Source: Maridesulfovibrio hydrothermalis AM13 = DSM 14728 (GTDB lineage: Bacteria; Desulfobacterota; Desulfovibrionia; Desulfovibrionales; Desulfovibrionaceae). Taken from it: a stretch of DNA of 64,000 bases. Positions 3,798 to 26,453 of the stretch are shown here, piece after piece. A program made the position numbers and the translations under genes. The DNA lies in NCBI RefSeq assembly GCF_000331025.1, contig NC_020055.1:2885370-2949369 (forward strand). Reading direction: 5' to 3'. Numbering within the stretch: position 1 is the first letter of the stretch; each line of letters starts with the position of its first letter. A model generated the notes under the pieces. The model saw nothing but the letters and a program-made list of their open reading frames with translations. It had not been told where the DNA came from and searched no databases.

Positions 3798-5705
3798 CTA
3801 ACTCTGTTTCCTGAGCCTGCGCTTATCACCGACACGCATGGTCACTTTTTCCTTATCCATAAACTCAAGCAAGGGTATGGAGAATTTTCTGGAAAGCCCG
3901 AGCAATTCTTTAAAATCCTGCGGTCCCAGCTCTTCATTTTCTGCAAAATACCCCTCAAGTGTTTTCTGCAAACTATCAACGGCAGATTTTGCAAAATACA
4001 TTTCATCTTTAATACGTACAACAAGCCCTTCACTCTGCAAAAGTTTATACACAGGCGAAGCTTCCTTGAATGTAAGATCAAGGGGAGCAAGTACATCTTT
4101 AAGGTTGGGCGGTGTCAGTCCGCCCTTTTCGTAGACATCAAGCAATGTATTGCGCAACTTCTTCTGATCAGACGCAAGAGAGACCTTATGACCGGGCAGA
4201 TGTAAAATTTCCTGCGCCACCACGATTTCATTTTTCTTAATCAGCCTTTCCACAATGGCATGAAAAAGCTTAGCAGGCAGTTTTTTGCCAAAGGTGGAAC
4301 CAATCTCTCCGCGTGAAACACCGGGTTTCATAGGTTCGTTCTTATGAAATTCTTTAAGATGGTTGATCAGCCCTTCAACCAATGTTTCATAATGACCGCC
4401 GAAAACATAATTACGGCTGTCCTTATCAAACAAAAAGACTTTTTGCTGCCCCCCCATAGTCTGAAGCAATTTTTCAAGCGGCTTTGATGCAACATTAGTT
4501 AAAATAGATAGTTCCTGAAAAGTAAGTCCGGCATTCCCCGCAAGTTCAAGCTGGGTAAGAATCAACACCTCCGGATCTGCACAAATCAGCGATTCAAGCC
4601 GTGTCACATCATCAGAAAAACGCTTAACCTTACGGCCCAGAGGGTTCACAATACTCCCCCCCGCAATGGTCCGCAGCGGGGAAAATGAACGGATTACTAT
4701 CCGGTCTCCGTACACTCCCGTCATAGGCTTATCAAAACGAACCTGACAAACTGCACGTTCACCCCGCCCGAGCTTTTCACGGTCCAGAAAATATACTTTC
4801 GCCATAACTTCTTTTGAACCGTGATGGAAATGGATCTCTTTACGATGCTTAAGCGACTTCGGAGATGATTCCAGACAAGTGAGTTCAACATCCCACACAG
4901 TAGAAGGAAATAAAGTCCCCGGCCGTCCAATAACTTCGCCGCGTTCAATATCCTCCACTTCCAGACCATGCAGATTTACAGCTGTACGCCTGCCCGCCGG
5001 AGCGGTTTCAACGCTGGAGCCGTGTGATTGCAGGCTGCGCACTTTCGTTGAGGTCATTTCAGGATACACAACAATATCATCGCCGACCGAAAGCTGACCT
5101 GAAATGAGCGTTCCGGTAACAATGGTTCCATGACCTTTCATAGTAAAAATTCTATCCACAGGAAGCCGCGCCAGATCGGTCCGTCTCTTAGGCGAAAAAG
5201 ATTTCATAAAGGTCGAAAGCTGCGCCTTAAGTTCATCAAGTCCCTGCCCTGTATGTGAAGAAACAGCATGAACCGGAGCCTCGGCAAGAAAGCTGGACGC
5301 AAGGAATTCTTTAACATCCTCTTTAACAAGCTCCAGCCATTCCTCATCAACAGAATCCACTTTAGTGAGCACAACAAAGCCCTGCCTGATGCCCAGTAGA
5401 GTACAAATCTCAAGATGCTCACGAGTCTGAGGCATCACCCCTTCATCAGCTGCGATAACCAGCAGCACAAAGTCAATGCCGGCTGCGCCCGCAACCATGT
5501 TCTTAACAAATTTCTCATGGCCCGGAACATCAATAATGCTCAAATGCTGGTCACCGCCAAGGTCCAGACTCGCAAAACCAAGCTCAATGGTGATACCGCG
5601 CTTCTTCTCCTCAGCCAGACGGTCACAGTCAGTGCCCGTCAAAGCCTTAATCAAACTGGTCTTACCATGATCAATATGACCAGCTGTCCCCATAACTACC
5701 GGCAT
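3798..5705 (-). CDS. selB: selenocysteine-specific elongation factor SelB
   Basis: GTPase that delivers Sec-tRNA(Sec) to ribosomes paused at UGA codons marked by a SECIS hairpin. Length is 635 residues. The N-terminal GTPase domain shows GHIDHGKT (G1, residues 9-16), DVPGHE (G3) and TKVD (G4); EF-Tu-like barrels follow. The C-terminal third is built of the winged-helix repeats that grip the SECIS RNA. The frame opens one codon earlier at a TTG (5708), but an AGGAGG site 4 bases upstream of the ATG at 5705 decides the start. It follows selA and an aminopeptidase gene on the same strand. Its client in this window is the UGA-containing fdhF at 14916. Confidence 0.96.
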
Positions 5706-5726
5706 CAAGCCTCCTGATATTTATGC

Positions 5727-7212: not shown

Positions 7213-8616
7213 TTAATCTAAATTAAGAGCTTGCAAAACAGACTGCGCAGCCATGTGGTATTCTTCCCGCGAAAGAGTGCGCGGGTCAAGGCAGAATGCA
7301 TCAAATTCAATACGTGCCACAAGCGGCGGCTCGGTTGAAAGAAGACGCTCCTTAAGCTCCTCCACCGAAATATTGACTTGCGGAAGGACCGTAACTAGAA
7401 ATGTTTTTAAATCCTGCTCCGGAAATGCGCCTCCGCCAACCCGTGATACGCCCTCGCGCACACCGACCTTGACGGAATCACCGAGCACCCGCCTAAACAC
7501 ACGCGCCAAAGACCGGGCCTGAGTTTTAAGATTCTCCGGTTTTTCCATGATCATACGCACTGTAGGTACTTCCCGCATGGCCGTATCAGGGTCAAGGTAA
7601 AGGCGCAGAGTTGCCTCAAGAGCCGCAAGAGTCATTTTATCAATTCGCACAGCCCGGTTAAGCGGGTTGCTTTTGATCATATCTATATATTTTTTAGTAC
7701 CCACAATAATCCCGGCCTGCGGTCCACCCAGAACCTTATCACCGGAAAATGAAACTATATCCACTCCCTCGGCCACAACCTCCTGCACCGTGGGTTCACG
7801 CATAAGCCCAAGCCCCGAAAAATTAGTCAAATTTCCGCTACCGAGATCTTCATAAACAGGGAGGTCATACTTACGTCCCAGCTCTGCCAGCTCCCCGCCA
7901 GAGACTTCTTTAGTAAATCCGATTACCCTGAAATTTGAAGTATGGACTTTCATTAAAAGCGCAGTTTCATCATTGATCGCATTTTCATAATCACGCAGAT
8001 GGGTGCGGTTGGTGGCCCCGACTTCATGCAAAATGGCCCCGCTTTTGGTCATCACATCAGGAATCCTGAAAGATCCTCCGATCTCGACAAGCTGCCCGCG
8101 CGAAACAACAGATTCCCGCCCTTTTGATAAAGTTTCCAGAGTAATCAGCACCGCCGAAGCATTATTGTTTACTACCAGCGCAGCTTCAGCGCCGGTAATT
8201 TCACAGATAAGCTTTTCCACATGACTGTAGCGGCTGCCGCGTTCTCCGGTTTTCAAATCAAATTCAAGGTTTGAATAATTAGCGCAGGCTTCAGCAACAG
8301 CCTTAACCGCACTTTCAGCCAGCAAAGAACGACCCAGATTGGTATGTACAACCACTCCGGTACCGTTCAGCACGCGCCGGAAATGCGGCTTGGCCCCGGC
8401 CCGGACATGGCAGGTCAGGCGCGGAAAAAGCACTTCCGCTGAAAGCTGTTTTTCCTCAGTAACTATCCCGCCCTTGATTTCCTCACGGCAGACATCAAGA
8501 AAGCCATTTACAAGGTCGCGGGAAAGAGTACGCGGCAGGCCGTCAATTACGCCCTCCTCCTCCAATCTGGTAAGAACAGAGTCAACTGACGGCAGGTATT
8601 TGAAAAGGTTGGACAT
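7213..8616 (-). CDS. selA: L-seryl-tRNA(Sec) selenium transferase
   Basis: PLP enzyme that converts seryl-tRNA(Sec) to selenocysteinyl-tRNA(Sec) using selenophosphate. It has 467 residues, a normal length. The N-terminal segment LPSVDSVLTRLEEEG is typical of SelA. The fold-type I core shows NGTGVVVHTNLGRSLL, NNNASAVLITL and SFSGDKVLGGPQAG, with the PLP Lys at 294. The start at 8616 has a GGAGG site 6 bases upstream, supplied by a GC-rich intergenic repeat. It is the first gene of a selA / aminopeptidase / selB block. The other two pathway genes, selD and the tRNA gene selC, were not found in this window. Confidence 0.96.
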   Translation of the reverse strand: MSNLFKYLPSVDSVLTRLEEEGVIDGLPRTLSRDLVNGFLDVCREEIKGGIVTEEKQLSAEVLFPRLTCHVRAGAKPHFRRVLNGTGVVVHTNLGRSLLAESAVKAVAEACANYSNLEFDLKTGERGSRYSHVEKLICEITGAEAALVVNNNASAVLITLETLSKGRESVVSRGQLVEIGGSFRIPDVMTKSGAILHEVGATNRTHLRDYENAINDETALLMKVHTSNFRVIGFTKEVSGGELAELGRKYDLPVYEDLGSGNLTNFSGLGLMREPTVQEVVAEGVDIVSFSGDKVLGGPQAGIIVGTKKYIDMIKSNPLNRAVRIDKMTLAALEATLRLYLDPDTAMREVPTVRMIMEKPENLKTQARSLARVFRRVLGDSVKVGVREGVSRVGGGAFPEQDLKTFLVTVLPQVNISVEELKERLLSTEPPLVARIEFDAFCLDPRTLSREEYHMAAQSVLQALNLD

Positions 8617-10507: not shown

Positions 10508-12223
10508 ATGAGTAAAAAAACAATTCTCCAATTTTCATTTGTAAATATTCTGCTGATCTGTCTTTTAGTGCTGCCTGCGAGCCTTACCTATGCGCAGAAT
10601 AACAGCACCGAAGAACTGAAAGATTTAGCAAAAGCAGCCGAAGAGCTGGACCAAATAGCCAAAACTCCGGAGCAGGCTGCTACACTGACCAATCTGCTTC
10701 ATTACAAATCTGAACTGCTAAAACAAACTATATCAGCTAAAAAAGCTATGAGGAGTACTTCCCATCCTCTGGATAAAGAAGCTCTTTCATTAAAATTAAA
10801 AGACCTGAAAAAACAGCTTAAAAAAGTTAATCAAAACTTTATCAAAGTTGCTACGGGACTCGATACTTCAATATTTAATGAAGAAATACAACAACACTTT
10901 CAATGGCAGGAAGAACTCGAAACTCTGGTCAAACCTATTTTGAATGAACTAAAGGAAATGACCAAACGGCCCAGACAAATTGAACGCTTGAAAAGCAAAG
11001 TTGCCTACTTCGAAAGCAAACTTCCCAATGCTGATGAAGCTGTAACGAATATTGAAAAACTCATTGATTCCACGGACTCTCTTCTACTGAAAGCTGAGCT
11101 TGATAAACTTAAGCTTGAATTTATGAAAAAACGTACCAATATCAGCAATCAACTGGATGTTGCTCGTTTTGAACTTAATGAATTGCAAAAGGAGAAAAAA
11201 TCTTTTTTTGAATCAACAAAAAAAGTTATGGCTGTTTTCTTTAAAACCCGTGGTAAAAACATCCTCATAGCTATGTTCACATTTGCCGGAGTATTTTTAT
11301 TTTTCCGCATCATAGATCGCGGCTTCAGAAAAATTCATCCCGCATTTAAAGCCAAACAAAGACCTTTTTATATCCGCCTTATCGAAATTCTTCTGCTGGT
11401 TATGAGTGTACTGGCAGCATCTATGGCTTCGCTTTTTACGCTTTACGTATCGGGCGACTGGTTTCTGCTCAGCATTGCGCTCATATTTATTTTCGGAGCA
11501 CTCTGGACCGCCCGTGCAGGATTCACCAGATACTACGAACAGGTCAAACTCATCCTTAACCTCGGATCTGTCCGCGAAAATGAACGCATTGTCCACAAGG
11601 GAGTTCCGTGGGCAGTAGAAAGACTCCAGATTTATGCAAAACTCAAAAACCCGGCCTTAAGCCCCAGCACGATCAGAATGCCTATCAGAGAACTGGAAAA
11701 CAAGATTTCCCGTCCCTTCGGCGAAAATGAACCCTGGTTCCCGTGCCGCATAGGCGACTGGGTGATACTCTCTGACGGTGTACGAGGCAAAGTTATCAGC
11801 CAGTCACCGGATATGGTTGAACTGCTCCAGCGCGGTGGAGCTTACGTTACATACCAGACCCCGGATTTTCTGGGACTCAATCCTAAAAACCTTTCTCGTA
11901 ATTTCCGGATCAAATCTGTTTTCGGCATTGACTACGCGCATCAGGCCGAATCAACTACATCCATCCTTAAACAGGCAAAAGAATTTATCTTGGCTAAACT
12001 TGAAGAAGACGGCTACAGCAAGCACGTTCTCAACTTAAACGTTGAATTCGAATCAGCAGGCGCATCATCACTTAATCTAGTGATTATAGCTGATTTTCAT
12101 AGCGACATCGCTGAGCTTTACGGCCGCCTTGTCCGGGCGCTGCAACGTTACAGTGTAGATGCCTGCAATAACTTTGAGTGGAATATTCCTTTTGACCAGC
12201 TTGTTCTCCACAAAGCAAAATAG
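10508..12223 (+). CDS. MscS-like channel with long exported coiled-coil domain
   Basis: Inner-membrane protein of 571 residues. A signal peptide (about 1-29, ending SLTYAQ) leads into a largely helical, charged, coiled-coil region (35-240) that should lie in the periplasm. Three hydrophobic segments follow at about 250-268, 288-314 and 318-336. The rest reads like the beta and C-terminal domains of MscS-family proteins, with FPCRIGDWVILSDGVRGKVI at about 408. The layout resembles the larger MscS relatives such as MscK or YbdG-type proteins, but no exact subfamily is assigned. It would act as an osmotic safety valve or ion channel. A smaller MscS gene converges on it from the right. Confidence 0.7.
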   Translation: MSKKTILQFSFVNILLICLLVLPASLTYAQNNSTEELKDLAKAAEELDQIAKTPEQAATLTNLLHYKSELLKQTISAKKAMRSTSHPLDKEALSLKLKDLKKQLKKVNQNFIKVATGLDTSIFNEEIQQHFQWQEELETLVKPILNELKEMTKRPRQIERLKSKVAYFESKLPNADEAVTNIEKLIDSTDSLLLKAELDKLKLEFMKKRTNISNQLDVARFELNELQKEKKSFFESTKKVMAVFFKTRGKNILIAMFTFAGVFLFFRIIDRGFRKIHPAFKAKQRPFYIRLIEILLLVMSVLAASMASLFTLYVSGDWFLLSIALIFIFGALWTARAGFTRYYEQVKLILNLGSVRENERIVHKGVPWAVERLQIYAKLKNPALSPSTIRMPIRELENKISRPFGENEPWFPCRIGDWVILSDGVRGKVISQSPDMVELLQRGGAYVTYQTPDFLGLNPKNLSRNFRIKSVFGIDYAHQAESTTSILKQAKEFILAKLEEDGYSKHVLNLNVEFESAGASSLNLVIIADFHSDIAELYGRLVRALQRYSVDACNNFEWNIPFDQLVLHKAK

Positions 12224-14915: not shown

Positions 14916-16988
14916 ATGAAAGAAGTTCTCACCATCTGTCCCTATTGCGGCACAGGCTGTTCTTTCCGGCTTAAAATTGAAAATGACCAGATTACCGGAA
15001 TTGTCCCGGAACAGAAGCTGGCTGTAAATAACGGTAAACTATGCTCCAAGGGGCATTACGGTTTTGATTTTGTCCGTCACCCTGACCGTCTGACCTCTCC
15101 TTTGATCCGCAAAGGAGGTGTTCTTGTAAAATCCTCATGGGACGAAGCCCTTTCGCTGGTTACCGATAAATTTAATGCTATCAAAGATCGACACGGCCCG
15201 GATGCCATAGCGGGATTCAGCTCCGCCCGTTGCACCAACGAAGAAAATTACCTCATGCAAAAATACATGCGCGCAGCTATCGGTACAAATAATATCGACC
15301 ACTGCGCGCGGCTCTGACATGCCCCCACAGTAGCCGGTCTGGCTGCTGCATTCGGAAGCGGATCAATGACTAATTCCATTGCCGAGATTGATGATATGGA
15401 CAGCGGTGACACGATCTTCGCCATAGGCACTAATACAACTGAATGCCATCCTCTGATCGGCATGAAAATGATTCAAGCCGCCCAGCGCGGAACCCGGATT
15501 ATTGTAGCTGATCCCCGCGCCATTACACTTACCCAGCATGCTGCCGTCTGGCTTCGCCTCAAGCCCGGAACGGATGTAGCCCTGCTCAACAGTCTGGCCC
15601 ATGTGCTGATAACCGAAGGACTTACCGACGAAAATTTCATTGCCGAACGCACCGAAGGATATGCGCAGCTTAAAGAAACCGTCCTCAAGTATACTCCGGC
15701 ATATGCTGAGACTATTACCACTGTTCCAGCGGAGCTGATTGTCAAAGCGGCCCGCATTATCGGCAACTCCCGCAACACTGCAACATACTACACAATGGGC
15801 ATAACCCAGCATACCTCCGGTGTGGACAATGTCCGCTCTGTTGCGAATATTGTTCTTTTAACCGGAAATATGGGCCGGCCCAAGACCGGACTGAATCCCC
15901 TGCGTGGTCAGAATAACGTTCAAGGATCATGTGACATGGGCGCATTGCCTAACGTCTATACGGGCTATCAGAAAGTGAATTCCCCTGAAATACAGGAAAA
16001 ATTCAGCGCAGCATGGGGAACCGCATTATCAGATAAAGAAGGTCTTAAAATCCCTGATGTGCTGCATGGCATTGAACAGGGCACTATGAAAGGTCTATTC
16101 GTTTTCGGCGAAAACCCCATGCGGAGTGACCCGGATATCAATCATGTTAAGCATTGCCTTGAGGAAGTAGAATTTTTAGTGGTTCAGGATATTTTCCTGA
16201 CCGAAACAGCAGAGCTGGCCGATGTAGTTCTGCCCGGTGCAACATTTGCTGAAAAAGACGGAACTTTTTCAAGCACCGAGCGACGGGTTCAACTCATACG
16301 CAAAGGGCTTGAACCTCTCGGTGACAGCCGTCCGGACTGGCAGATTCTAGCCGAACTTATCCAGCGCATGGGAGCAGGCGTGAATTACAACTCTCCGGAA
16401 GAAATTTTCGATGAAATGCGCAGCCTGACTCCATCACATGCCGGACTTACATATTCCCGGCTGGAAAATGAAAACCTGCAATGGCCCTGTCCCAGCGAGG
16501 AACACAAAGGAACTCCAGTGCTCCACATCGGTAATTTTATGCGTGGCAAGGGAGCTTTTCTTGGAATGGATTACCGTGAACCGGCTGAAATTCCTGATGA
16601 TGACTATCCGCTTATACTGACCACCGGCCGTATTGTTATTCACTACCATACCGGAACCATGACCCGCCGGTGCTGGGGCCTCGACGGCTTGCGCCCCGAG
16701 GAATCTCTGGAGATCAATCCCGCTGATGCCGCCAGATACGGAATCAATGACGGCGACAGCATAATAATCTCCTCACGCCGGGGCGAAATGCGCGCACGAG
16801 CAATGGTGACCGGACGAGTACCGAAAGGAGTGACTTTCACTACTTTCCATTACAGCGAAAGCCCGGGAAATATTTTGACCAACAGTGCCTCCGATCCTGA
16901 GACAGGAACTCCAGAATTTAAAGTCTGCGCCGTTAAAGTCAGAGCAGGTAAAGAGCAGGATCATCCCGTAAAGGCTTACAGTGTTTAG
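14916..16988 (+). CDS. fdhF: selenocysteine-containing formate dehydrogenase, HDCR/FDH-H type (UGA read through)
   Basis: Molybdenum or tungsten bis-pterin enzyme that interconverts formate and CO2. The frame contains one internal TGA (15315-15317) and continues in the same frame to 16988, giving 690 residues with Sec at position 134. The context is CARL-Sec-HAPTVAGL, matching the Sec and catalytic His of E. coli FdhF. A single [4Fe-4S] site is formed by Cys8, Cys11, Cys15 and Cys43. MopB signatures follow, such as GENPMRSDPD and the C-terminal molydopterin-binding domain. The start is ATG 14916 (MKEVLTICPYCGTGC); a TTG seven codons upstream is also open but lacks support. It heads a four-gene operon with two ferredoxin subunits and an [FeFe] hydrogenase. 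It is not a pseudogene: the SECIS hairpin directly follows the UGA. Confidence 0.95.
15315..15348 (+). promoter_or_regulatory. selenocysteine codon and bacterial SECIS hairpin
   Basis: UGA at 15315-15317 is followed, 10 bases on, by a perfect 8-bp stem, with one G-U pair: CAGTAGCC (15328-15335) with GGCTGCTG (15341-15348), capped by the 5-base loop GGTCT. The AGGTCT/GGTCT apical motif is the SelB-binding feature of the E. coli fdhF SECIS. It is recognised by the SelB encoded at 3798-5705. Confidence 0.9.
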
Positions 16989-16999
16989 AATTATTAATG

Positions 17000-17045
17000 C
17001 AGGATTATCCTTCGGAGATCTGAAAAATTCTCTAAAGGACCGCCC
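17000..17045. repeat. intergenic repeat remnant between fdhF and the ferredoxin gene
   Basis: Contains AAAGGACCGCCCGAGAC, which closely matches GAAGGACCGCCCGAAGC at about 26622-26638 upstream of recQ. Both lie outside genes and probably derive from the same dispersed element. Confidence 0.4.
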
Positions 17046-17069
17046 GAGACAAAATAACATAGGTAAAAT

Positions 17070-17657
17070 ATGGCTTCTTTAAACTCTTTCATCACCGCTG
17101 ATCCTGAAAAATGTATCGGCTGTAAACTTTGCGAAGTTGCCTGTTCGCAGGCTCATTCCAAGGATTCATCTTTCACTGTCGGCTCCATGAACGGCCCGAT
17201 TCTGCCTCGCTTGTACCTTGTCCGCACTCCTGAGGTTACAGTGCCGGTACAATGCCGCCATTGTGAAGACGCGCCATGCGCTAACTGCTGCCCTTCTTCT
17301 GCTATCAAGCGCAAAAATGGAGCGATTATCGTTGACAGTAAACTTTGCTCAGGCTGCAAGACCTGCATGCTGGCCTGCCCTTTCGGGGCCATTGAGCTTT
17401 TACCTGTTTATGAAAACGGAACCCCCGTGATGCAGGCGGTGCTTTGCGAAGAGAGTGAGACTTCTACAGAAGAAGTTCCCATGCTTTTTGCCGGAAAATG
17501 CGACCTTTGCACTGAAAGTAAAAGCGGACCGGCATGTATTGAGGTCTGCCCGGAAAATGCGCTGCAACTTTTTGATCCTGCCGGCACAAAGAAACAGCGT
17601 AATATTAAAGCGGCCCTCAGCTTCCTGCAAACTTCACAAAATTTTCCTTCGAAATAA
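17070..17657 (+). CDS. HycB/HydN-like electron-transfer subunit (four [4Fe-4S])
   Basis: Ferredoxin-like protein of 195 residues that should wire FdhF to the hydrogenase. Four cysteine clusters are seen in order: CIGCKLCEVAC (15-25), CRHCEDAPCANCC, CSGCKTCMLAC and CDLCTESKSGPACIEVC, the HycB/HydN/DmsB-type arrangement. There is no signal peptide or membrane helix, which fits a soluble cytoplasmic complex. A second paralogue closes the operon at 19050. The gene starts 81 bases after fdhF and its stop lies 12 bases before the hydrogenase gene. Confidence 0.88.
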   Translation: MASLNSFITADPEKCIGCKLCEVACSQAHSKDSSFTVGSMNGPILPRLYLVRTPEVTVPVQCRHCEDAPCANCCPSSAIKRKNGAIIVDSKLCSGCKTCMLACPFGAIELLPVYENGTPVMQAVLCEESETSTEEVPMLFAGKCDLCTESKSGPACIEVCPENALQLFDPAGTKKQRNIKAALSFLQTSQNFPSK

Positions 17658-17669
17658 AAGAGTCATTTC

Positions 17670-19049
17670 ATGTTAAATTCAAATCAACTTATTCATATTG
17701 ATAAAGAGCTTTGCACCGGTTGCGGCCGCTGTAAGGAAGTCTGCCCTGTCGAAGCTATTTCCGGAGTTCAAGGGGAGCCGCATTCCATAGACCACGCACG
17801 CTGTGTTATCTGTGGACAATGCATTCAGACTTGCAGTGCCTACGGCTCCATCCTTGAAGAGCCGGATACTCCTCTTGCTGAAAAACTTCACGAGCGCGGT
17901 ATGTTTAGATCAGTTGAGGAGCCTCTTTTTGCTGCTTATTGCACTGGAAATGCCCCTGAAGTCATGAAGGAGTTGCGGTCAGACAAACTGTCTCTGGTGC
18001 AATGCGCTCCGGCTGTCCGCACTGCCATCGGCGAAGATTTCGGCATGCCTGCGGGGTCGCTTACTCCCGGTAAAATGGCTGCGGCCCTGAGGCGACTGGG
18101 TTTTGACCGTGTTTATGACACAAATTTCGCCGCCGATCTGACCATAATGGAAGAAGGTAACGAACTTCTTTCACGCATCAGCAACGGTGAAACTCTGCCT
18201 ATGTTCACATCCTGCTGTCCGGCATGGGTTCGTTTCATGGAGCTTAATTATCCGGACCTGCTGGGCCATCTTTCAAGCTGTAAATCACCGCAGCAGATGT
18301 CCGGAGCACTTTTCAAGACCTACGGGGCGGACATTGATAATCGCAAACCCGAAGAGATTTTCAGCGTATCGGTTATGCCCTGCACCTGTAAAAAATACGA
18401 AAGTTCACGCCCTGAAATGAAAAATAACGGGCTGCGCGATGTCGATGCGGTCATCACCACCCGTGAGCTTGGATATATGATTAAAGAAGCTGGCATTGAT
18501 TTCACGACACTGCCTGCTGAAGACTTTGACCGTCCGCTGGGAACTTACACCGGAGCCGGGAATATATTCGGAGTAACCGGAGGAGTGATGGAAGCCGCAC
18601 TTCGCACCGCCTGCGAACTCGTCACGGGAAAGCCTGTACCCGAAACGGACCTGATCTTTGTTCGCGGCGAGGCTGGAATGCGCACCGCCTCAATGGATAT
18701 GAACGGTACTACTTTCCGTGTTGCAGTCGTAGCCGGTCTAACCAATGCGATTGCTTTGCTGGAAAAAGTGCGGACCGGAAAAGCGGAGGTGGATTTTGTG
18801 GAAGTCATGTGCTGCCCTTCCGGATGCATCAGCGGCGGAGGACAACCAAAAGTGCTGCTCCCCGCTGATCGGGAAAATGTTTACCGCTGCCGCAAGCAGT
18901 CTATGTACTCACATGATCAAAACATTAAGATACGCAAGTCTCATGAAAACCCTGATGTACAAAAAGTATATGCCGATTTTCTGGGTGAGCCTTTAGGGCA
19001 TACCTCCCATAAACTGCTGCACACTTCATATGACAGGAAGGACTGTTAA
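17670..19049 (+). CDS. [FeFe] hydrogenase catalytic subunit, HydA2-like
   Basis: Interconverts H2 with protons and electrons. It has 459 residues. An N-terminal two-cluster ferredoxin domain (CTGCGRCKEVC at 15-25, CVICGQCIQTC at 45-55) is followed by the H-cluster domain. All three H-cluster motifs are present: TSCCPAW (180-186), with Cys182 as proton relay and Cys183 as ligand; MPCTCKKYE (236-244) with Cys238; and EVMCCPSGC followed by GGGQP (378-393) with Cys382 and Cys386. There is no twin-arginine signal, so it is cytoplasmic, unlike the periplasmic HydAB of Desulfovibrio. Its place between two HycB-like genes behind fdhF matches HDCR. The maturases HydE, HydF and HydG are not in this window. 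Confidence 0.93.
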   Translation: MLNSNQLIHIDKELCTGCGRCKEVCPVEAISGVQGEPHSIDHARCVICGQCIQTCSAYGSILEEPDTPLAEKLHERGMFRSVEEPLFAAYCTGNAPEVMKELRSDKLSLVQCAPAVRTAIGEDFGMPAGSLTPGKMAAALRRLGFDRVYDTNFAADLTIMEEGNELLSRISNGETLPMFTSCCPAWVRFMELNYPDLLGHLSSCKSPQQMSGALFKTYGADIDNRKPEEIFSVSVMPCTCKKYESSRPEMKNNGLRDVDAVITTRELGYMIKEAGIDFTTLPAEDFDRPLGTYTGAGNIFGVTGGVMEAALRTACELVTGKPVPETDLIFVRGEAGMRTASMDMNGTTFRVAVVAGLTNAIALLEKVRTGKAEVDFVEVMCCPSGCISGGGQPKVLLPADRENVYRCRKQSMYSHDQNIKIRKSHENPDVQKVYADFLGEPLGHTSHKLLHTSYDRKDC

Positions 19050-19574
19050 ATGAAATCCTTTGTAATTGCTGATCCTGAAAAATGCATCGGTTGCGGAGCA
19101 TGCGAAATTGCGTGCGCCGTAACGAACTCTCATATGATAATTCCTGAAGCGGCGCGCATCCGGGCGGCTTTCAACCCACGGTTGAATCTTATTTTCATGC
19201 CCGAAATAACCATGCCCATCCAATGCAGACAATGCGAGGATGCCCCCTGCGCTCAGGTCTGTCCTGTGGGCGGTATTGTTTTCAAGGGTGGAGTTGTGCA
19301 CGTAAAGCAGGAAAATTGTATCGGCTGCAAAATGTGCATGGCAGCCTGTCCGGTAGGAGCTGTAAACATCCTGCCGCGCGGCAGTGTAAAAGGGGAGGAT
19401 AAAGAAATACTTCCCGAATTTTACGCTGATAAATGTGAGTTATGCAATGATCGAAAAGAAGGCCCTGCTTGTCTGGAAGTATGTCCGGCTGAAGCATTTA
19501 CCCTTGTCAGCGAAGATAAAATAAAAGAGACGATAAAAGCCAGACGGGAAAAGGCTATTCATTCAATGGGGTAA
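19050..19574 (+). CDS. HycB/HydN-like electron-transfer subunit, second copy
   Basis: 174-residue ferredoxin with four [4Fe-4S] motifs: CIGCGACEIAC, CRQCEDAPCAQVC, CIGCKMCMAAC and CELCNDRKEGPACLEVC. Its ATG begins directly after the hydrogenase stop codon, so translation is probably coupled. It is similar to the operon's second gene but shorter by about 20 residues. In HDCR two such subunits form the electron wire between formate dehydrogenase and hydrogenase, and the two copies here fit that role. Confidence 0.88.
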   Translation: MKSFVIADPEKCIGCGACEIACAVTNSHMIIPEAARIRAAFNPRLNLIFMPEITMPIQCRQCEDAPCAQVCPVGGIVFKGGVVHVKQENCIGCKMCMAACPVGAVNILPRGSVKGEDKEILPEFYADKCELCNDRKEGPACLEVCPAEAFTLVSEDKIKETIKARREKAIHSMG

Positions 19575-19704: not shown

Positions 19705-20565
19705 CTACCCTCCGACAACGGCCTCAACACCGGCAACAATATCAAGCAGCTCACCAGTGATAGAACTCTGTCTGGTATTTCTGAAATCAGATTCCAGCAA
19801 TTCCACATGCTCTATAATATTTTTCTCCGCAACCTGCATTGCTGCCAGCCGTGCACTGTTTTCGGCAGCTAAAGATTGAACAATTGCGCCGTATACCGAG
19901 ATATATAGATATTCCCTAAATAATGTTGAGAATAAATCTTGTACCGGAACATTGGTCATAGGCAGCGATCTCCCCCACCACATCTCCTGCCTGCTCCTTT
20001 TGCGCAAGGGCAGAATCCGGTCGGTTGAAACCTTCTTCCCGTCACTTGCATACAGGTTGTTGACGATGCTGAACATGTGCATATTGCGACAGCTTTTCCA
20101 ATCTTCCAAATTTCTTTCAATCTCATCAACAACGGCATCAACGCCGCGCAGACTTCCCGGAACACGAAACTCTAAATCCACCGTTACACCGGAATCCTCC
20201 AGTGCTCCGCGAACCCTTTCCCCGCAGGTCCAGCATGAGACATTGTGCCCCTCAGCCAAAAGTTCATCTATAACTTTAACAGTATGTATTTTGGAAATTT
20301 CATTGAACTGCCCGCACATCCCCTGATCAGAACCAACTGCCAAGACTACAGCAACACCGTCCTTTCCGGTACGTGGAAGGATTCCGGAATTTTTAAAAAA
20401 AACAGTCCATCCTTCGTCGACAACCTCTGCGTACTCTCCGACTCCTTTAGCTGCGTTTTCAAAATGACGGATATTCACAGCCGCAAGGGCCTTCATGGTT
20501 TTGACGACAGATAGCAGGTCGCCCGTAGTGGCAATTTTTTTGCGGACGGCCTCAAGCTGCTGCAT
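19705..20565 (-). CDS. atpG: N-ATPase gamma subunit
   Basis: Central-stalk subunit of 286 residues of the F-type N-ATPase. The N-terminal helix [32 protein letters not shown] and the C-terminal helix ([16 protein letters not shown], then [17 protein letters not shown]) match the gamma coiled coil that turns inside the alpha-beta hexamer. It is the last gene of the nine-gene operon and overlaps atpA by 14 bases. It converges with the hydrogenase operon, 130 bases away. Confidence 0.93.
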
Positions 20566-22078
20566 TGCTTTTCCTCCACCTGTTCACAGAATTAATTATA
20601 TACCTCTCAAGTTCATCCCAGATGGCATCTTTAGGCTCAGCCATAGGCAGCCTTTCAATATCCGCAAAACCGTCACCTGCTTTTGCGAGCAGGTAATCTT
20701 GAATTTCGGCAATACGGTCAAGCGGGATATCATCGAGCAAACCTAATGAAACGGTCCAAAGGATGATTAACTGCTCAGATGCGGTAAGCGGTGAAAAACG
20801 ATCCTGCTTGAGCAGTTCACGGACTCGCACTCCGTGTTCAATGCGTTTACGGGTATCCTTATCCAGCCGGGTCCCGAACCTTGCAAAGGCTTCAAGCTCT
20901 TGAAACTGTGAGTAGGTCAACCGCAAGTCACCGGAAACCTTACGGTACGCAGTAGGCTGTGCACGCCCTCCCACCCTTGAGACGGATTTGCCGACATCGA
21001 TTGCAGGCAGCATGCCTTTTTGAAAAAGTACAGGTGATAAATAAATCTGTCCGTCAGTTATGGAAATCAAATTTGTGGGGATGTAGGCTGATATATTTTG
21101 CGCCTCTGTCTCCACAACAGGTAGAGCCGTTAAAGTACCCCCGCCATGTTCCGGCTTCAACCTCGTAGAACGCTCCAGCAGCCTTGAATGAATATAAAAA
21201 ATATCGCCGGGAAAAGCTTCACGCCCCGGAGGTCTGCGCATAAGCAGACTCAATTGCCGATAAGCCTGTGCGTGGCGGGTAAGGTCATCATAAATAATCA
21301 GCACATCACGGCCCTGTTCCATAAAATATTCAGCCATACTGGTCGCCGCATATGGAGCTATATACTGCATGCCGGACGGAGCGTTGCCTTCAACAACCAC
21401 AACAAAAGTATAAGCCATAGCCCCGTGCAGCCGCAGGGTTTCAATCACCCGCGCAACAGATGTGCTGCGCTGGCCTATGGCGCAGTAGACACAAACCACA
21501 TCACCTTTATTCTGATTTAAAATGATATCAAGCGCGATGGCCGTTTTTCCGGTCTGACGGTCGCCCAGTATTAATTCCCTCTGCCCGCGACCGATGGGAA
21601 TGAGTGTATCGATAACCTTTATACCGCTGGCCATAGGAGTATCAACAGGGGCACGCATAAGAATTGACGGGGCTTCTGTTTCCACAGGACGAGTCTTGAA
21701 AGTTTCCGGTGCGGGGCCTTCATCCAGCGGATTGCCCAGCGGGTCGATAACTCTTCCGATCAATGCATCGCCGACCGGTACACTCAACACAGCACCGGAA
21801 GCAGCAGCTTCATCGCCAGCACGAAGTTCCTTGTTAGAACCAAGCAGTGCCACGCCCACAGAGTCAGGCAGAAGATCCAGAGCCATACCTGGAACCTGAT
21901 TACCAAGCATAACCAGTTCTTCAGACCGGACAGACTTAAGCCCTTCCACCTGCGCAACGCCGCGCGCTACAGAAAGAACACGACCCACTTCTTTTGATTC
22001 AGGACTATAGATCATTTTATCAAGTCCCCTTTCACAGGCCCCTAATGCCTGATTTATATTGTCTGCTATGAATCCCAT
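20552..22078 (-). CDS. atpA: N-ATPase alpha subunit
   Basis: Non-catalytic nucleotide-binding subunit of 508 residues. The Walker A motif is [13 protein letters not shown]; the later signature [17 protein letters not shown] is standard for F1 alpha. The ribosome-binding site GGAGG, 9 bases upstream of ATG 22078, lies inside a GCCTCCGGTGGC intergenic repeat. A 105-base gap separates it from atpF, larger than other gaps in the operon. Confidence 0.95.
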
Positions 22079-22086
22079 CGCAAGAT

Positions 22087-22098
22087 GCCTCCGGTGGC
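22087..22098. repeat. GCCTCCGGTGGC repeat supplying the atpA ribosome-binding site
   Basis: GATGCCTCCGGTGGC lies inside the N-ATPase operon, just upstream of atpA. On the minus strand it reads GCCACCGGAGGC and provides GGAGG. The related CCTCCGGAGG does the same for selA. Confidence 0.5.
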
Positions 22099-22183
22099 AC
22101 GAAAAGGTTCAAGACTCAAAAAAACGTTTAACCGGTTAAGACTGCTAATCTGCCAAATCGCCCATCGCAGAAATCATCTAAGG

Positions 22184-22918
22184 CTAATCACCTCGTATTT
22201 CGGACAAAATATTCTGTTCCAGTTCGTCAATATAGGACGCTAAATTCCATTCCCATTTGCGGTCTCCGGCTATCAATTCAATTCCCAGCCCGAGCTTGGG
22301 ATCTTCTGAAAAAAGACGCTCATTACATGCAGGAAATAATTCATCGAGCATCGCGGACAGCTTTTCCTGATGCGGCCCTTTGTGAGCAAAACCAGTTCGC
22401 ACCAGTATTTCTCTGCTGCCGCAATTTATGCCTTGAGCTTCGAGTTTAATTTTACGGATAAAACCTGACACTATCTGCTGCTCAAGATCACTTCCAGCCA
22501 GATCCTGCACAATGCGCGAGGCTGTTGCCGCCACCTCATGCATGAGCCTTTTTCTCAAATTGAGTGCTGCATTTTCTTTTTCACGGCTGAGGGCAGCAAG
22601 CCATTCTTCACGAAGAGCATCAATCTCTGTGCGCGCGGATGCCATAGCCTGCTGTCGCCACTTTTCTGCTTCAGCATGAATCTCAGCCATAACTTCAGCT
22701 GCCCGATTCTCAAGCTCTTCCCGCTTGGCCTTAAGTTCTGCACTTAGCTCATCAGCCTTTGCCCCGGCTTGACGGACTGCGCGCATTTCAGCTGCAACAT
22801 GCTCCTTGCGCTGTTTCATGGCCTCGACAATGGGACCGTAAAGAAATAATTTCAGCAGCACGATCAGCACAAAAAAGTTCAAAATCTGCGCAAAGACAGT
22901 GAACCAGTCCAGCAGCAT
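22184..22918 (-). CDS. atpF: N-ATPase b subunit with delta-like C-terminus
   Basis: Peripheral-stalk subunit of 244 residues, well above the usual 155-170 for b. One N-terminal membrane helix (about 4-27) is followed by a long charged helix (AAEMRAVRQAGAKADELSAEL and onward). The last 90 residues, ending in SEDPKLGLGIELIAGDRKWEWNLASYIDELE, resemble the C-terminal part of the delta subunit. N-ATPase operons lack a separate delta gene, and none is present here, so this tail probably takes its place. It starts 1 base after the atpE stop. Confidence 0.9.
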   Translation of the reverse strand: MLLDWFTVFAQILNFFVLIVLLKLFLYGPIVEAMKQRKEHVAAEMRAVRQAGAKADELSAELKAKREELENRAAEVMAEIHAEAEKWRQQAMASARTEIDALREEWLAALSREKENAALNLRKRLMHEVAATASRIVQDLAGSDLEQQIVSGFIRKIKLEAQGINCGSREILVRTGFAHKGPHQEKLSAMLDELFPACNERLFSEDPKLGLGIELIAGDRKWEWNLASYIDELEQNILSEIRGD

Positions 22919-22919
22919 A

Positions 22920-23198
22920 TCAGCCCCCGGCCTTCTCTAAAAAGTAGGCCCAAAATGGATTGGCAAAAAGTAAAATCATGGCCAGAACAAAACAATAAAT
23001 AGCGGTAGATTCAACCATCGCCATCCCTACGAACAAAAACTTTACAATAGTATTGGTTTCATCAGGCTGCTGGGCAATGGAACTAAGCGCCCGCGACAAA
23101 GCCATTCCTTCACCTATAGCCGGCCCGATAGCCCCGATGCCCATACAAAGACCAGCTGCAATAATGGATGCAAATGCAATCCAGCCAAGAGTTTCCAT
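22920..23198 (-). CDS. atpE: N-ATPase c subunit, sodium-type
   Basis: Ring-forming proteolipid of 92 residues with two membrane helices. Helix 1 has GPAIGEG with Glu30 and helix 2 has MVESTAIY with Glu63, Ser64, Thr65 and Tyr68. The ES-T-x-x-Y set is the Na+-coordination signature known from Ilyobacter tartaricus c subunits, and an acidic residue in both helices is typical of N-ATPases. Na+ is therefore the likely coupling ion. A clear AGGAGG precedes the ATG. Confidence 0.94.
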   Translation of the reverse strand: METLGWIAFASIIAAGLCMGIGAIGPAIGEGMALSRALSSIAQQPDETNTIVKFLFVGMAMVESTAIYCFVLAMILLFANPFWAYFLEKAGG

Positions 23199-23317
23199 AC
23201 AACTTCCTCCTAATGTTTAAAGCATAACTTGAACAATCAGAACCTTCTTAATCAATTCCACATCATCAGGATTTCAAATGTGATTTCCCCCCTGTTCCGC
23301 AGGGCCTCCAGTAAAAC

Positions 23318-23989
23318 CTACTCAGAATGAACCTCCAATCCGGCAGCGATAAAGACCGCAGCCAGAACCGTAAAAATATAAGCCTGCACGACTCCGATCA
23401 GCAGCCCCAGCAATTGCATGATCACCGGAACAAATAGAGGCATGATAACCAGCAAAATGGCCCCCATCATAGTTCCGCTCAAAATATTTCCAAAAAGACG
23501 CACAGCCAGCGCAAACGTCCGGCTGACTTCGCCTATAATATTAAATGGCAGCATAAACGGTGAGGGCTGCACGTAACTTTTTAAATAATTGATCACCCCG
23601 TTTTCCTTTATACCGTAATAAGGCACGGCAAAAAAAACGATCAAACTGAAAGCTGTAGTTGTAGAAAGTGAACCGGTCGGAGGAGAAAAACCGGGAATAA
23701 CTGATAAAATATTGGAAACCAGTATGAAAATGAACAGCGTTCCAAGCAGCGGTAAATATTTTTCAGGATGCTGATTTGTTGCATCCCTTATCTGTGAAAG
23801 CAGCCCACCCACCAGCACTTCCAATAGATTCTGCTGATCGGAGATGACCGACGAAGACGTAACTCTGCGGGTAACAAACCATGAAAAACCCGTAAGTAAA
23901 ATCATGACCAACCATGTAAAAAGAATGGTCGCATTCAGTTTGATAAATCCAGAGCTGAAATAAATAATATGGTCCGGGCTTATTTCCAT
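23318..23989 (-). CDS. atpB: N-ATPase a subunit
   Basis: Stator membrane subunit of 223 residues that forms the ion half-channels. About five hydrophobic helices are seen. The essential Arg is in ALAVRLFGNILSG, next to the c ring. The N-terminus (MEISPDHIIYFSSGFIKLNATILFTW) is typical of the group. It begins 2 bases after the atpR stop. A 119-base gap separates it from atpE. Confidence 0.93.
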   Translation of the reverse strand: MEISPDHIIYFSSGFIKLNATILFTWLVMILLTGFSWFVTRRVTSSSVISDQQNLLEVLVGGLLSQIRDATNQHPEKYLPLLGTLFIFILVSNILSVIPGFSPPTGSLSTTTAFSLIVFFAVPYYGIKENGVINYLKSYVQPSPFMLPFNIIGEVSRTFALAVRLFGNILSGTMMGAILLVIMPLFVPVIMQLLGLLIGVVQAYIFTVLAAVFIAAGLEVHSE

Positions 23990-23991
23990 AT

Positions 23992-24297
23992 CTACCTCTT
24001 AAAACCGATCACTTCAGACAGGCCGACGCCGCAATATCTGCTAAGAGTAAAAGTGCGCAGCAAATAGAATCCCAGAAAAGCCGAGGCTAACGCCAAACCG
24101 CCAAACTTCATGATCTGAGCAAAACTCCCAAGGGTAATCCCGTACCTCCCTAAATAGCTGGCCCAGAAAAACATGCGCGGCCTTTCACAGCGTGGAAGCA
24201 TCCAGACAGTCAGCCATAATCCTCCAAAATGGATAACAGAAAGCATCACACCTATACCGAAAGAAGCAATGGCCAGCATCAAGTCACTATTTATCAT
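23992..24297 (-). CDS. atpR: N-ATPase accessory membrane protein AtpR
   Basis: 101-residue protein with three hydrophobic segments (about 5-30, 43-56 and 62-82) and membrane-embedded basic residues (RYG, LLRTF). AtpR is a hallmark of N-ATPase operons and is thought to help assemble the c ring, perhaps by pairing its Arg residues with the extra c-subunit Glu. It overlaps atpQ by 11 bases. Confidence 0.85.
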   Translation of the reverse strand: MINSDLMLAIASFGIGVMLSVIHFGGLWLTVWMLPRCERPRMFFWASYLGRYGITLGSFAQIMKFGGLALASAFLGFYLLRTFTLSRYCGVGLSEVIGFKR

Positions 24298-24648
24298 CTT
24301 CCTGCTCCTTTTCCTCCGCCTCCCACTCTTCCCGCTCTTTTATAATCTTGTTCTTCTCTCTGTTCATCCAAATTCCGGCAAAGACACATCCGGTAAAAAG
24401 ACCTGCACCAAGCATGGTCAGGGTCCAGCTTATTTTTGAAGGCCAATTATAATCCAGCCATGCACCAAACAAACTGCCCAAAAAAGTTGGTAAAGCCACA
24501 AACCAGCCAACAACCCCCATAGAGCCAAAGGCTGTCCATGCGCCTACCGTGCCCTTTTTTCCAGCACGAATCCTGCGCTTTTCTTTCGATGCTACTGTCC
24601 TGCGGAATTTTTCATGCTGCTTATTCTGAGCTTCCTTGAGATCAGCGT

Positions 24649-24652
<4 letters not shown>
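24287..24652 (-). CDS. atpQ: N-ATPase AtpQ / AtpI-like assembly protein
   Basis: 121 residues: a basic N-terminus, two hydrophobic helices (about 45-66 and 75-95, with FLGSLFGAWLDY between them) and a very acidic C-terminal tail (EEWEAEEKEQEDD). This fits the AtpI/AtpQ protein always found third in N-ATPase operons, thought to aid c-ring assembly or Mg2+ uptake. It overlaps the stop of atpC by 4 bases. Confidence 0.83.

Positions 24653-26453
<1,801 letters not shown>

Follow-up and report, generated by a model that had tools for sequence, protein, structure and literature searches.

Hydrogen-dependent CO2 reductase (HDCR) has been described from Acetobacterium woodii and Thermoanaerobacter kivui. 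In T. kivui the enzyme is said to form membrane-anchored filaments (PMC10413684, PMC12905484), which depend on the C-terminal helices of the subunits HycB3 and HycB4 (PMC10413684). The A. woodii enzyme also catalyses both directions of the reaction (PMC6288185), and an enzyme of the same make-up from Clostridium beijerinckii catalyses both reactions (PMC12905484). A 2018 review counts HDCR clusters in 18 organisms, of which five are sulfate reducers, lists Desulfovibrio alaskensis, D. magneticus and D. salexigens among these, and proposes a role in the Wood-Ljungdahl pathway for the enzyme in sulfate reducers (PMC6288185). In 2014, mutants of a cytoplasmic formate:hydrogen lyase were tested in D. 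alaskensis; that paper cites a prediction from 2011 and infers H2/formate interconversion in the strain (PMC4215793).

Here we describe an HDCR operon in Maridesulfovibrio hydrothermalis AM13 = DSM 14728. It lies in a stretch of 64,000 nucleotides of NC_020055.1 (the window), whose positions are used throughout unless a contig is named. A first-pass annotation of the window had placed four genes in a row at 14916-19574 on the forward strand and read them as the HDCR subunit set; both points stand. Its implied novelty for Desulfovibrio fails, given the three listed species and the mutant study. The features of the operon are as follows.

14916-16988, + strand: fdhF, encoding a formate dehydrogenase of the molybdopterin family that has selenocysteine and one 4Fe-4S set; the frame is open only when TGA is read
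15315-15317, + strand: in-frame TGA, selenocysteine codon, in the context HCARL-U-HAPT
15330-15346, + strand: hairpin of the selenocysteine insertion sequence (SECIS) type, with a 6-bp stem and a GGTCT loop; it begins 12 bases downstream of the TGA
17070-17657, + strand: hycB4-like gene for a four-cluster ferredoxin subunit, an ordinary frame, closest to T. kivui HycB4
17577-17636, + strand: predicted C-terminal helix of the HycB4-like protein, residues 170-189 (20 residues), in a block with a predicted local distance difference test score (pLDDT) of 76-83; putative counterpart of the filament helix
17670-19049, + strand: hydA, an ordinary frame, HDCR-type [FeFe] hydrogenase with two N-terminal 4Fe-4S sets and no export signal
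19050-19574, + strand: second hycB, in the HycB3 place, an ordinary frame

We are highly confident that the four proteins form an HDCR complex, because all four find their best PDB match in one solved structure, the T. kivui HDCR (7qv7), HydA falls in the HDCR clade and the gene order is fixed across loci. The best chain for FdhF is 7qv7_S (E 1.2e-233), and HydA matches 7qv7_D at E 7.6e-194 with 61% identity. The first HycB matches 7qv7_B at E 2.4e-67 and is 56% identical to T. kivui HycB4 vs 43% to HycB3. The second matches 7qv7_B and 7qv7_A at E 8.5e-36 and 3.7e-35. HydA scores 440.7 with NCBIfam FeFe_hydrog_A (cut-off 405.95) and 557.4 with the group A6 model, below that model's cut-off of 765. 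Its tree of 49 rows, which include 23 of 80 retained relatives and 8 more as outgroup, holds a 41-row HDCR clade (support 100/97) to which T. kivui and the window both belong. Hydrogenase and ferredoxins were thus not found in unrelated families, and HydA groups with T. kivui HydA2.

The association of the four genes across loci is far beyond chance. Matches to all four proteins occur in 18 of 32 [FeFe] hydrogenase loci (two are the window's own), and the order fdhF-hycB-hydA-hycB is fixed in 17 of 17. The remaining 14 are other [FeFe] hydrogenases, with no fdhF or hycB matches. In the named genomes 80 of at least 593 HydA relatives were retained. HycB matches were present there in 22 of the 23 loci with at least 54% HydA identity and FdhF matches in 18 of the 23, some loci being cut by contig ends; of the other 57 loci, two have any HycB or FdhF match. 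That FdhF matches reach only 18 of the 23, and that FdhF and the ferredoxins are members of broad families, is what could be said for a hydrogenase and ferredoxins that serve free ferredoxin or another partner, with FdhF separate. We consider that arrangement very unlikely, as the order is the same in all 17 loci and all the best matches lie within one solved complex.

The hydrogenase had been described as cytoplasmic with two clusters. HydA carries eight N-terminal cluster cysteines as well as the H-cluster cysteines, assignments that we take from the usual meaning of the motifs. Equally, the absence of a membrane arm, signal peptide or twin-arginine translocation (Tat) motif held up. No RRxF was found in the first 40 residues of any of the four proteins, the highest 19-residue hydropathy mean was 1.61, and no membrane subunit adjoins. 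By the same test, the genome's other [FeFe] hydrogenase (L002) does have a Tat-type start, on its small subunit. A Tat signal on a subunit marks the periplasmic [FeFe] hydrogenase of Desulfovibrio, and the four proteins here lack one. Because export signals are absent from all four proteins, a cytoplasmic location is supported. Solubility, which had also been claimed, is less sure, given the membrane-anchored filaments described for T. kivui.

FdhF scores 874.5 bits with NCBIfam Fdh-alpha (cut-off 666.25). Its reading as a selenocysteine enzyme is supported by a single in-frame TGA, followed by a covarying SECIS-type hairpin, and by selA and selB in the same window:

7213-8616, - strand: selA, selenium transferase (TIGR00474, 602 bits, cut-off 267.9)
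3798-5708, - strand: selB, selenocysteine elongation factor (TIGR00475, 390 bits, cut-off 242.25)

The TGA stands in the same HCARL-U-HAPT context in 15 of 15 complete fdhF genes of relatives; a further locus (L121) is cut by a contig end. Covariation was scored on 19 selenocysteine rows out of 29; the count leaves aside the remaining 10, in several of which the stem sits in another register. Pairing holds in 108 of 108 cells over these 19 sequences (18 distinct), with slid controls at 19-49% of cells. Both sides have changed in four of the six pairs, and the covariation score was matched by none of 500 shuffles. The fold energy by itself is not unusual (z -0.83), and an Rfam search at gathering scores returned tRNAs only. 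The GGTCT loop presumably resembles that of the E. coli fdhF SECIS. Selenocysteine occurs in 29 of 34 FdhF rows, the other five having cysteine (L034, L038, L040, L041 and L043), and in all 17 FdhF proteins of the window's family and Halodesulfovibrio. As a divider of FdhF groups it was dropped after this check. In the FdhF tree (34 of 40 rows, short search) the window's relatives group with Clostridium ragsdalei and C. magnum (97).

Both ferredoxins had been taken for four-cluster proteins of the HycB/HydN type. Each has 16 invariant cysteines in alignments of 34 and 27 relatives, and therefore room for four 4Fe-4S clusters. The HycB4-like protein ends in a tail, KKxRNxxAALSFL, that aligns with the T. 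kivui tail. Over the extent of the printed alignment the end reads KKQRNIKAALSFLQTSQNFPSK in the window and KKARNKEAALSFLRV in T. kivui. The best Foldseek match of its model is 7qv7_B. With such tails the complex may form filaments as in T. kivui. Against the HDCR reading, the second HycB ties between T. kivui HycB3 and HycB4 at 132 bits each. Similarity thus leaves its label undecided, and the name HycB3 falls to it since the other is clearly HycB4. The HycB4 model is middling (mean pLDDT 68.6) and superposes on 7qv7_B with a TM score of 0.46 and a root-mean-square deviation of 11.4. The HycB3 model is poor (56.7), and a C-terminal helix of HycB3 appears only in that low-confidence model.

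The role in this organism is likely cytoplasmic H2/formate exchange. FdhF would interconvert CO2 and formate at a site with selenocysteine and molybdenum or tungsten, the two HycB proteins would carry electrons via eight 4Fe-4S clusters, and HydA would interconvert protons and H2. The complex would run both ways in the cytoplasm without ion pumping. It would bring H2, from an Ech-like hydrogenase for instance, into equilibrium with formate, and would not feed the Wood-Ljungdahl pathway. The subunits, the clade, the selenocysteine signal and the lack of export signals are direct results of this analysis; assembly, activity, direction and filaments are inference.

The genome offers the setting of a sulfate reducer, with dsrA over cut-off and QrcB present. 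Two FdhA fragments are of the formate-dehydrogenase-N type; one passes the cut-off and the other falls short of it. Besides the Tat-type periplasmic [FeFe] hydrogenase there are two [NiFe]/[NiFeSe] hydrogenases, each with an RRDF start on its small subunit. HydG is present; a HydG-like match with stops (L140) was rejected as thiH. An Ech-like gene set is also present, which we presume to encode a hydrogenase from the DPCxxC end of its large subunit. Against the exchange role it must be said that this large subunit scores best with NuoD models, under cut-off, so that only DPCxxC speaks for a hydrogenase, and that no FocA-type formate channel was found in the genome.

The lack of that channel for formate uptake bears equally on a related explanation, that in the living cell the complex works for the most part as a cytoplasmic formate hydrogen lyase, turning formate into H2 and CO2. 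This does not exclude the HDCR reading. The subunits would be the same, the A. woodii and C. beijerinckii enzymes are bidirectional (PMC6288185, PMC12905484) and the D. alaskensis enzyme bears the lyase name (PMC4215793). As a cytoplasmic source of formate, however, no pyruvate formate-lyase (PFL) was recognised; neither of the two PFL-family genes of the genome resembles one. We regard a mainly lyase direction as a real possibility, somewhat short of an even chance. Of those two genes, the one at 1702322-1704268 of contig C2 (G000) is choline trimethylamine-lyase CutC, far above cut-off. The other, at 1452293-1454218 of the same contig, is a glycyl radical enzyme over the broad PFL2/dehydratase cut-off that passes no equivalog cut-off. 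It has a GCVE-type single cysteine and no CC pair, read by the usual meaning of the motif.

The Wood-Ljungdahl role proposed for sulfate reducers (PMC6288185) would have the enzyme supply formate for carbon fixation. Formyl-tetrahydrofolate synthetase (FTHFS) was not found in the genome, which is rated 100% complete (4 of 14 control genomes were positive), nor was the CdhC/ACS domain (2 of 14, both archaea). The proposal therefore does not fit here, and we hold it to be extremely improbable for this organism. M. hydrothermalis thus provides a selenocysteine HDCR in a genome with no detected FTHFS or ACS domain, which sets the role of this enzyme apart from carbon fixation and allows H2/formate equilibration to be tested by deletion.

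Five Molydop_binding matches occur in the genome, and the window's FdhF is the sole one recognised as Fdh-H type. A molybdopterin oxidoreductase-like frame at 1084625-1084852 of contig C2 is under the Pfam cut-off and has no NCBIfam match at 1e-60. Positions 208-253 of another contig of the genome, C1 (5328 bases), match 668 plasmid records, 605 of them from Escherichia (positions from five rows).

HDCR in the genus falls into two lineages. Among 118 genomes, the window's own included, 48 match HydA at E 1e-60 or better; the loci, and hence the neighbouring genes, were seen for only part of these matches. HDCR-type HydA with its operon was observed in 17 of the 48: the window's own genome, 13 of the 16 genus mates and three further members of the family (G051, G046 and G040). 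HydA of six genus mates is 76-80% identical to that of the window (lineage A, with the window), and that of seven is 54-56% identical (lineage B). The 17 genomes of the genus thus comprise seven with lineage A and seven with lineage B, and none showed both. One search of the remaining three (G002, G003 and G008), at E 1e-60 with 14 candidates scored per genome, found no HDCR. Lineage A forms one clade (100/99) in the HydA trees. A second clade (100/100) unites the seven B genomes with Halodesulfovibrio, G046 and G040, and within it G013 is the partner of Halodesulfovibrio. The FdhF tree repeats the split. The HycB4 tails of lineage B diverge after KK-RRN-EAALAL. The two lineages offer a natural comparison of filament tails within one genus.

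The window's HydA is 65% identical to that of Clostridium thailandense, among the matches listed, vs 54-56% to the seven genus mates. These identities prompted the idea of a recent transfer from Bacillota, to which trees with and without outgroup give no support. Inclusion of the outgroup leaves the HDCR clade without a resolved backbone. Without it, a branch (96/98) sets apart 18 rows, those from the window's family together with Halodesulfovibrio, and a topology that unites lineage A and the lineage B group is not rejected (approximately unbiased test, p-AU 0.465). The rpoB tree puts six of the seven lineage A genomes in one clade (100/100) and the window's genome next to the B genomes (92/90, not starred); monophyly of the seven A genomes is not rejected (p-AU 0.289). 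No publication on two HDCR lineages in one genus was found in literature searches that were not aimed at that point alone. The full picture, of two deeply split and mutually exclusive lineages of which that of the window, with its T. kivui-like tail, forms filaments and equilibrates cytoplasmic H2 and formate without a Wood-Ljungdahl pathway rather than fixing carbon, is put forward as a conjecture that as a whole is rather unlikely to hold.

Within the operon, fdhF and hycB4 are separated by 81 bases, hycB4 and hydA by 12, and hydA and the last hycB abut (19049/19050). From these short distances the four genes are likely to be one transcript. Scans for sigma-54 and sigma-70 promoters and for terminators gave results no better than chance. 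A phosphatidylserine decarboxylase gene and an MscS gene lie 5' of the operon on the opposite strand. On the 3' side, convergent with it, lies:

19705-26435, - strand: alternate (N-type) F1Fo ATPase operon

In one genus mate (G007), F1Fo ATPase gamma and alpha genes are likewise found at a distance of about 2.5 kb from the HDCR operon; no match to them lay in the flanks retrieved for 15 further loci of relatives. HytB, HytC and HytD, the extra genes of the bifurcating Fdh/Hyt complex of the C. autoethanogenum type, are not among the identified genes adjoining the cluster; the rest of the genome was not searched for them. A 571-residue frame at 10508-12223 on the + strand has no Pfam or NCBIfam match at E 0.001.

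E. coli formate hydrogenlyase uses a [NiFe] hydrogenase and a membrane arm. It resembles the operon described here in coupling formate oxidation to H2 and in having a distantly related HycB (7z0s_B, E 4.9e-31), but no [NiFe] hydrogenase or membrane arm is among the identified genes adjoining fdhF. The locus of Halodesulfovibrio sp. N3 (L053) shares the four-gene order and a selenocysteine FdhF; its HydA, however, is only 55% identical and groups with lineage B. The T. kivui HDCR shares the set of FdhF, HydA2, HycB3 and HycB4, as well as the aligned HycB4 tail. It differs in that its FdhF lacks selenocysteine, both hyc genes lie between fdhF and hydA2, and fdhD and fdhC stand at the end (PMC6119302), whereas the window has one hycB on each side of hydA and other flanking genes. 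The clusters of D. alaskensis, D. magneticus and D. salexigens, including the G20 'formate:hydrogen lyase', are, by their description, of the same kind. With HDCR clusters in such bacteria already described, the operon is a sound, ordinary addition to a known class and, for CO2 hydrogenation catalysis, one further candidate in it. What it adds is its setting in a genome where FTHFS and ACS were not found, and the two lineages within one genus.

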